A DNA stretch of 49,795 nt from Clostridia bacterium (GTDB lineage Bacteria > Bacillota > Clostridia > Oscillospirales > UBA644), in NCBI GenBank assembly GCA_017623475.1, contig JAGAPC010000022.1:1-49795 (forward strand), read 5' to 3'. The position numbers were made by a program, and so were the translations under genes. This document shows positions 6,908 through 8,844 of the stretch, piece after piece. The notes below the pieces were generated by a model. The model ran no database searches, was not told the DNA's origin, and saw only the letters and a list, made by a program, of their open reading frames with translations. How positions within the stretch are numbered: position 1 is the first letter of the stretch; every line of letters begins with the position of its first letter.

Positions 6908-7588
6908 TTATTTCTCCAATCCCATCAGTTCCAGGGCTTTTTTTGCCGCCGCCTGCTCCGCCGCCTTCTTCGACCGTCCTCTGCCTTCGGAGATGCGGTT
7001 ACTGTTTAAGTATAGATGGCAAAGGAAGGTTTTTTCATGCTCCGGTCCGAAATCGTCGGCGATGACGTATTTCAAGGCTTCCCCCGGATTTTTCTGAATC
7101 ACTTCCTGCAGAACGGTCTTGTAATCGTGCTGACGGAAGTTTTCCGCCCCCCGGATCAAAAAGGGGAGAATAAAATCCCGGGCGTTTTCATATCCGCCGT
7201 CTAAGTAAATGGCGCCCAAAATGGCTTCCACCTCGTCGCAGAGAATGGAGCTGCGATGCTCCGCCCCCGCTAACTTTTCCCCTCTGCCCAAAAGGAGGCT
7301 TTCTCCCAAATTCAGTTCCTTTGCGTAAGTAGAAAGGGCTTCCTCGCAAACCAAAAGGGCTTTGGTTTTGGTCAGATCCCCCTCGTCGCCCTTTCGGGTG
7401 TGGTAGAGGTGGTCGGAGCAGATGAGGGATAATACCGAATCCCCCAAAAATTCCAGCCGTTCGTTACATTCCTCCGCATCCCGATGCTCGTTGAGGTAGG
7501 AGGAATGGGTCAGCGCCTTGCGCAGCAGGGTCTTGTCTTTGAATACGTAACCGATCTTTTCTTCGGTTTTTGCCAAATGCTCAATCAT
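6908..7588 (-). CDS. rnc: Ribonuclease III
   Basis: A 226-residue dsRNA endonuclease for rRNA and mRNA processing. The catalytic domain carries the signature NERLEFLGDSVL (42-53) and the second acidic motif DEVEAILGAIYLDGG (D118, E121), giving the expected four acidic metal ligands. A dsRNA-binding domain fills about 155-224, with the terminal RSKKAAEQAAAKKAL helix. The ATG at 7588 overlaps the stop of the upstream carrier-protein gene by 8 bases, so translation is probably coupled. The order plsX-acp-rnc is a classic bacterial arrangement. Confidence 0.96.
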   Translation of the reverse strand: MIEHLAKTEEKIGYVFKDKTLLRKALTHSSYLNEHRDAEECNERLEFLGDSVLSLICSDHLYHTRKGDEGDLTKTKALLVCEEALSTYAKELNLGESLLLGRGEKLAGAEHRSSILCDEVEAILGAIYLDGGYENARDFILPFLIRGAENFRQHDYKTVLQEVIQKNPGEALKYVIADDFGPEHEKTFLCHLYLNSNRISEGRGRSKKAAEQAAAKKALELMGLEK

Positions 7589-7820
7589 TCCGATGTTCCT
7601 CGATATAGGCGATCAGATCTCCGACGGTGACGATGTTTTCGTAATCCTCGGGATCCACGAAGACGTCAAATTCTTCCTCCACCGCCATGAAAATTTCCGT
7701 CATGTCCAATTCGTCGGCAACGAGATCGTCGGCAAAATGGACGGCAGGGGTAATATTATCTTCTTCCTCGGCAAAAATGTCCGAAAGAATCGGTTTTAAG
7801 ACGTTCAGGGTTTGGATCAT
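7581..7820 (-). CDS. Acyl carrier protein homologue lacking the phosphopantetheine serine
   Basis: This 79-residue acidic protein aligns end to end with bacterial ACP: the FADDL turn, then the recognition helix and a MAVEEEF segment. The invariant attachment motif DSL is here DEL: residue 37 is Glu (codon GAA), in VADELDMTEIF. Ser to GAA needs at least two base changes, so a single read error is unlikely. Position between plsX and rnc is that of the standard acpP gene. Without Ser the protein cannot carry a 4'-phosphopantetheine arm, so it may be a structural or regulatory relic, with a functional ACP elsewhere. The start is 7 bases after plsX, with a weak ribosome-binding site (GAAAGTGAG). 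Confidence 0.85.
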   Translation of the reverse strand: MIQTLNVLKPILSDIFAEEEDNITPAVHFADDLVADELDMTEIFMAVEEEFDVFVDPEDYENIVTVGDLIAYIEEHRND

Positions 7821-7827
7821 AATCGGC

Positions 7828-8844
7828 TCACTTTCCCGCTTGTTCGGTTTCCTTTTGTGCTTTCAACTGTTCGGTGATCTTTTCCACCGCGCCGGATCTT
7901 GCAAAGTTCGCCGCTTGGCGAATGGCGTTCTTGAACGCCTTTGCGTTGGAGCTTCCGTGGGCTTTTACCACCGGCTTTGCCACGCCCAACAGAACGGCGC
8001 CGCCCTCTTCCGTGTAATCCAATTTCCGCTTCATAACCCGAAGCTGAGGCTTCAGCATGGCGGCAAGAAGCTTGGAAAAGAGGGTGGACGTCAGGGCGTC
8101 CTTCATAATGCTCATCATAAACATGGCGGTGCCTTCCACCGTTTTCAGCAGAATGTTTCCCGCAAAGCCGTCTGCCACGAGAACGTCGCAGGTGCCGTCG
8201 AAAATCCCTCTGCCTTCCACGTTTCCGATAAATTCAAAGGCGTTGTTTTCTTTCAAAAGAGCGTGTGCCTGCTGATACAGTTCGGGACCTTTGGTTTCTT
8301 CGGTTCCGTTGTTCAGAAGTCCCACCTTGGGCTTGGTGCAGAAGCCGGCGTTTTTCATGTACAACGCGCCCATGGTCCCGAACTGATCCAGATATTCCGG
8401 CGTGCACACTTCGTTTGCGCCGCTGTCGATCAGCATAAAATGTCCGGTTTTGGAGGGGAATACGGGGGCAAACGCCGCCCGCTTTACGTTGGCGATCCGC
8501 TTGACGATCAAGGTGCCGCCCGCCAGAATCGCGCCGGAATTCCCGGCAGAAACGAAGGCGTCGCCCTCGCCGTTCTTCAACAGATCAAACGCCAGCCCCA
8601 TGGAAGAATTGCGTTTTGCCTTCAGTACGCTTCCCGCGTCGTCCTCCATGGTAATGATCTCTTCCGCGTGGCGGATCTCAATGTTGTTATCGTCGATGTC
8701 GTTTTCGTCCATCGTTTGCTTCAGCAGTGCTTCCGGGCCGGTGACGATGATCTTCACGCCCAGCTCTTCCACTGCCATAGCGCAGCCTTTCAGGATTTGC
8801 AGAGGGGCGTTGTCACCGCCCATGCCGTCAACGATGATGGTCAT
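7828..8844 (-). CDS. plsX: Phosphate acyltransferase
   Basis: A 338-residue protein that makes acyl-phosphate from acyl-ACP for phospholipid synthesis (PlsX/PlsY route). Recognisable features are the N-terminal VDGMGGDNAP, the SAGNSGAILAGG segment, the LIDSGANEVC stretch and the C-terminal ADGFAGNILLKTVEG region, all typical of PlsX. Length matches the family. AGGAAGG lies about 9 bases before ATG 8844. It is followed after 7 bases by the unusual carrier protein and then rnc. Because PlsX uses acyl-ACP, its adjacency to a carrier protein lacking the attachment Ser is notable. Confidence 0.95.
   Translation of the reverse strand: MTIIVDGMGGDNAPLQILKGCAMAVEELGVKIIVTGPEALLKQTMDENDIDDNNIEIRHAEEIITMEDDAGSVLKAKRNSSMGLAFDLLKNGEGDAFVSAGNSGAILAGGTLIVKRIANVKRAAFAPVFPSKTGHFMLIDSGANEVCTPEYLDQFGTMGALYMKNAGFCTKPKVGLLNNGTEETKGPELYQQAHALLKENNAFEFIGNVEGRGIFDGTCDVLVADGFAGNILLKTVEGTAMFMMSIMKDALTSTLFSKLLAAMLKPQLRVMKRKLDYTEEGGAVLLGVAKPVVKAHGSSNAKAFKNAIRQAANFARSGAVEKITEQLKAQKETEQAGK

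Follow-up and report, generated by a model that had tools for sequence, protein, structure and literature searches.

Acyl carrier proteins (ACPs) are defined by the serine that carries phosphopantetheine; the group cannot attach without this residue, and phosphopantetheinyl transferases (PPTases) require Ser at this site. A close described counterpart of the gene analysed here is AcpB of Enterococcus faecalis. The gene for this auxiliary ACP is apparently cotranscribed with plsX; in the reaction with PlsX the protein accepts acyl groups better than the main ACP and donates them less well, and it is required for FabT control (PMC6509188). Two further cases concern ACPs without a load. Unloaded apo-ACP was reported to inhibit the glycerol-3-phosphate acyltransferase of E. 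coli, in work cited in PMC3896788, and growth was suppressed on overexpression of S39A, an obligate apo form of the Synechococcus ACP (PMC4736557). Both cases show that lipid enzymes can be affected by an ACP that carries nothing. No description of a Ser-less ACP was found in the open-access PMC papers searched.

The window, i.e. the whole stretch of 49,795 nucleotides from a Clostridia bacterium that was analysed, contains a gene of this kind between plsX and rnc. The features of the locus are:

7581..7820, minus strand: Ser-less ACP paralogue with Glu37 at the phosphopantetheine position, assigned from the ORF of 79 aa, the profile match and the predicted fold
7710..7712, minus strand: codon 37, GAA (Glu), the site of the modified Ser in carrier proteins
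7828..8844, minus strand: plsX, acyl-ACP:phosphate acyltransferase (PF02504), directly upstream with a gap of 7 bases
6908..7588, minus strand: rnc, RNase III with RNase III domains, downstream, its start codon lying within the acp frame (8-base overlap)

Translation of the ORF at 7581-7820 on the minus strand gives 79 aa, MIQTLNVLKPILSDIFAEEEDNITPAVHFADDLVADELDMTEIFMAVEEEFDVFVDPEDYENIVTVGDLIAYIEEHRND, in which the tripeptide D36-E37-L38 is found where ACPs have DSL. An earlier note, made from the letters alone, had claimed that Glu replaces the modified Ser at the acpP locus, and this was borne out: residue 37 is Glu, encoded by GAA, and Ser is absent at this position from each of the 20 genomes in the window's family. 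The statement that a change from Ser to GAA takes at least two base changes holds for any Ser codon. The protein scored 29.3 bits with the Pfam model PP-binding (PF00550), above the cut-off of 20.8, and stayed below the cut-off of every NCBIfam acyl-carrier model (56.3 vs 70.45 for TIGR00517). Since the DSL-bearing ACP of the same genome is likewise below the NCBIfam cut-offs, the failure of the Ser-less protein alone says little. In comparison with AcpP (TIGR00517) at plsX-acp-rnc loci, the window protein shares the locus, the length, the predicted fold and the acidic face of helix II, and it occupies the position of the DSL ACPs of related families; it differs in that Ser37 is replaced by Glu, Leu, Phe or Val in its family and in its scores below all NCBIfam ACP cut-offs.

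The window's family consists of uncultured gut bacteria. Residue 37 of the plsX-linked ACP was Glu in 16 of its genomes, Leu in two and Phe and Val in one each, and Ser in none of the 20. The objection that relatives might carry DSL and so expose an assembly error fails for the family, and with Ser in 0 of 20 genomes a mutation of a single genome is ruled out as well. Glu37 is a clade character and not an error. The ACP-like gene adjoins rnc in all 20 genomes, and plsX was seen on the opposite flank in 18 of them; in the two loci where plsX was not seen beside the gene, one lies at a contig end. DEL is likewise present in JAGAOB010000077.1 of Clostridia bacterium RGIG8618, a MAG of unclassified Clostridia.

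In order to define the distribution of the Glu form, 394 genomes of the order were searched with a DNA pattern for the signature A-D-E-x-D-x-x-E...E-E-E-F, and the reversed pattern served as control. The signature was present in 14 genomes, all of the window's family and all in the same gene; the reversed pattern gave no match in the 394 genomes. In a wider survey, 80 stretches downstream of plsX were examined across the order. Some families retain a DSL ACP between plsX and rnc, and in several families plsX directly adjoins rnc with no ACP gene between them. Ser-less ACPs outside the window's family were found at three loci, with Ala and Pro in family f9 and Trp in family f15; all three (L064 of G027 with Pro, L063 of G051 with Ala and L083 of G171 with Trp) occupy the same plsX-acp-rnc position, and at loci related to them DSL is retained or the gene is gone. 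In the RNase III tree the window's family forms one clade (SH-aLRT 91), f9 also contains a Ser form (G069), and the Trp form of f15 adjoins a Ser form. Mapped onto this tree, the residue states require three switches between presence and absence of Ser. Ser was lost at the plsX-linked locus at least three times in the order, at least two of them outside the window's family. In a class-wide search with a Ser-less profile, the best-scoring matches outside the family that were examined were ordinary ACPs with Ser.

Purifying selection acts on the Ser-less gene. It is intact in 20 of 20 family genomes, with no internal stops, and its pairwise dN/dS values range from 0.05 to 0.42, with dS often near saturation. 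For comparison, values of 0.02-0.07 were obtained for true ACP copies and of 0.045-0.14 for PlsX of the window's genus; judged by these lower values and a near-saturated dS, the constraint on the Ser-less gene is looser and imprecise. Neutral simulation at a divergence of 1.16 left about 14% identity vs 77% seen for the nearest pair. A pseudogene is ruled out by this mismatch, by the intact frames and by dN/dS well below 1.

Residues I15, F16, L33, D39, E42, E48, E49 and E50 were invariant across 17 aligned rows, and D36 was present in 16 of the 17. The ACP length, acidic surface and helix II context described earlier are retained (79 aa; D39, E42, E48, E49 and E50 invariant in the 17 rows). 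Pairwise identity in the D-x-L and helix II region was 0.64 for the Ser-less proteins vs 0.70 for Ser-type plsX-linked ACPs, with shifts mainly at positions 34, 37, 38, 41 and 46, and other regions were about equal. Established work on ACPs places the docking face at these helix II residues, and the putative partner-recognition face (D36, D39, E42, E48-E50) is, as judged from the alignment, as conserved as in true ACPs. Glu itself is not essential at position 37, which is occupied by Leu, Phe or Val in some family members and by Pro, Ala or Trp elsewhere in the order; an obligatory phospho-mimic is therefore unlikely. In most members of genus g6 (L015, L016, L018, L019, L020, L022, L029) helix II is kept and the helix III segment is rewritten (LPKKGP...), so the ACP surface is not kept in full.

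The AlphaFold model of the window protein (pLDDT 93.8) shows the four-helix ACP fold and superposes on PfACP 3gzl with a TM-score of 0.92. In this model the protein has a normal ACP fold in which the predicted docking face is kept and the attachment point is gone. Among the structural matches are ACPs that serve as subunits of other machines (MmpL5-AcpM, ISD11). Retention of the rest of the protein without its Ser suggests that it works by docking onto other proteins and not by carrying fatty acids.

Carriers with the attachment Ser are encoded elsewhere in the same genome (G000):

L002:1480-1761 (contig C7): DSL-bearing second ACP, between a DUF6062 gene and ruvX
L188:6069-7991 (contig C2:22069-23991), minus strand: fusion of an AMP-binding enzyme with a Ser-bearing carrier domain at its C-terminus, 640 aa

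The second ACP has DSL in all 11 copies examined in the family, with ruvX or a DUF6062 gene close by. Its existence had been expected near fab genes; the DSL ACP was indeed found, and the expected neighbourhood was not, as the searches of the window's genome yielded neither FabF nor FabD nor FabH. In some relatives (G012:C22, G006:C2) a DegV/FakB-type gene lies within about 1-2 kb of the DSL ACP. The window's genome encodes an Sfp-type PPTase, and 17 of 20 family genomes gave PPTase matches. Contig C2 also carries, in a cluster, FakA, two DegV/FakB-type genes and a PlsC-type acyltransferase that adjoins the AMP-binding/carrier fusion. The arrangement resembles a cluster for the import and acylation of fatty acids that has a carrier of its own.

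Profile searches of the draft genomes, several of which are incomplete, placed FabF (PF00109) and FabD (PF00698) in the same five of 20 family genomes and in no genome of the window's genus, and FabH (PF08541) in none of the 20. Each of the 20 family genomes has FakB-type genes, and 18 have PlsY. As no FabF, FabD or FabH was found and FakA, FakB-type proteins, PlsX and PlsY are present, the host is probably a fatty-acid importer; fatty acid synthesis was probably lost in the window's genus and exogenous fatty acids are imported. FabF-positive and FabF-negative family genomes alike retain the Ser-less protein, so its role is independent of fatty acid synthesis.

Against this background the plsX-linked paralogue may be read as a permanently apo ACP that would act as a docking, competing or tuning subunit, most likely for PlsX, a reading that we adopt tentatively and at somewhat less than even probability. 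The ancestral ACP of the plsX-acp-rnc locus would have ceased to carry acyl chains, a task left to the ruvX-linked ACP that retains DSL; the attachment Ser would have been lost in the ancestor of the family and the copy retained since as an apo ACP. With the attachment Ser absent, the claim of the earlier note that no holo form can be made is supported as far as the residue goes. We infer that the protein goes unmodified and acts through contact with other proteins: it would fold normally and present the acidic helix II docking face, and could not be loaded. PlsX of a fatty-acid-importing host would exchange acyl groups between acyl-phosphate (from FakAB) and holo-ACP, and the Ser-less protein would dock on PlsX and might compete in or tune this exchange. 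Among possible partners PlsX ranks first, since it is encoded in the same operon and is an ACP-binding enzyme. The suggestion of a permanent mimic fits the apparently retained recognition face together with purifying selection. Several families have plsX-rnc and no ACP gene, which argues that deletion is easy, yet the window's family retains the Ser-less gene. A more specific version, in which a clade-wide natural regulator that can never be loaded docks on PlsX or on a PlsX/holo-ACP complex and sets the balance of acyl-phosphate and acyl-ACP in fatty-acid importers, is possible but somewhat unlikely.

AcpB resembles the window protein in being a second ACP encoded with plsX (at a gap of 7 bases here) besides a separate main ACP (DSL, contig C7), in its low identity to the main ACP and in a host that imports fatty acids by FakAB; it is known to interact with PlsX differently from the main ACP, a partner that is putative here. 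AcpB retains the Ser and bears both phosphopantetheine and acyl chains, whereas the Ser-less protein lacks the attachment residue family-wide and therefore cannot act as an acyl-AcpB ligand. With Synechococcus ACP S39A and E. coli apo-ACP it shares the ACP fold and loading that is impossible or absent; those cases are mutants or overexpression effects, whereas the window protein is natural, evolutionarily kept and found in a host with PlsX/PlsY.

The same retention evidence, namely the gene intact throughout the family, purifying selection and the kept face, would also suit a partner other than PlsX. The protein would then be a subunit, with a structural or a regulatory part to play, of RNase III, of a membrane or Fe-S complex or of another ACP-binding protein. 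The adjoining rnc in 20 of 20 loci and the solved ACP-subunit complexes (MmpL5-AcpM, ISD11) among the structural matches speak for such a role; these complexes, however, are generally known to use holo or acyl-ACP, rnc is retained in families without an ACP at the locus, and no family-specific partner gene was found, so that we consider it unlikely. A slowly decaying leftover, superseded by another ACP, of little further use except for translation coupling or a mild influence of dosage and now on its way out, would account for the three or more Ser losses at the locus in the order, the variable residue 37, the absence of the gene from several families, dN/dS above that of true ACPs and the overlap of the acp stop with the rnc start in the window. 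It is quite unlikely, as the gene is intact in all 20 genomes with dS near saturation, the recognition face is invariant in the 17 rows and the neutral expectation (about 14% vs 77% identity) fails. The overlap with rnc is missing in several genera, with gaps of about 50-140 bases in g6; together with the families that have plsX-rnc and no ACP, this leaves operon coupling, proposed earlier as the reason for keeping the gene, as a weak idea that does not explain the family-wide pattern.

Very improbable is a protein that is still a carrier, loaded at another residue or binding lipid non-covalently in its helical bundle. The intact predicted fold and the Sfp-type PPTase retained in the family would fit it, but PPTases are established to require Ser at position 37, and the alignment shows no Ser, Thr, Tyr or Cys conserved as a substitute for S37; the sole near-invariant hydroxyl, T65, is common to ordinary ACPs, and an alternative attachment residue was rejected for want of a conserved candidate.

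With a Ser-less ACP kept family-wide under selection in a phospholipid operon, nature itself tests which functions the ACP surface has beyond acyl carriage. As a putative docking protein of PlsX it would offer a genetic handle on PlsX control in bacteria without fatty acid synthesis. For annotators and metabolic modellers it is a warning: in these genomes the acpP locus does not encode the acyl carrier.

The five genomes of the window's family (f1) with FabF and FabD and without FabH by PF08541 are G002, G003, G004, G006 and G012. The fab cluster of G004 comprises fabD, fabG, fabF, an accB-like and a fabZ-like gene, as named from reading of the translations.
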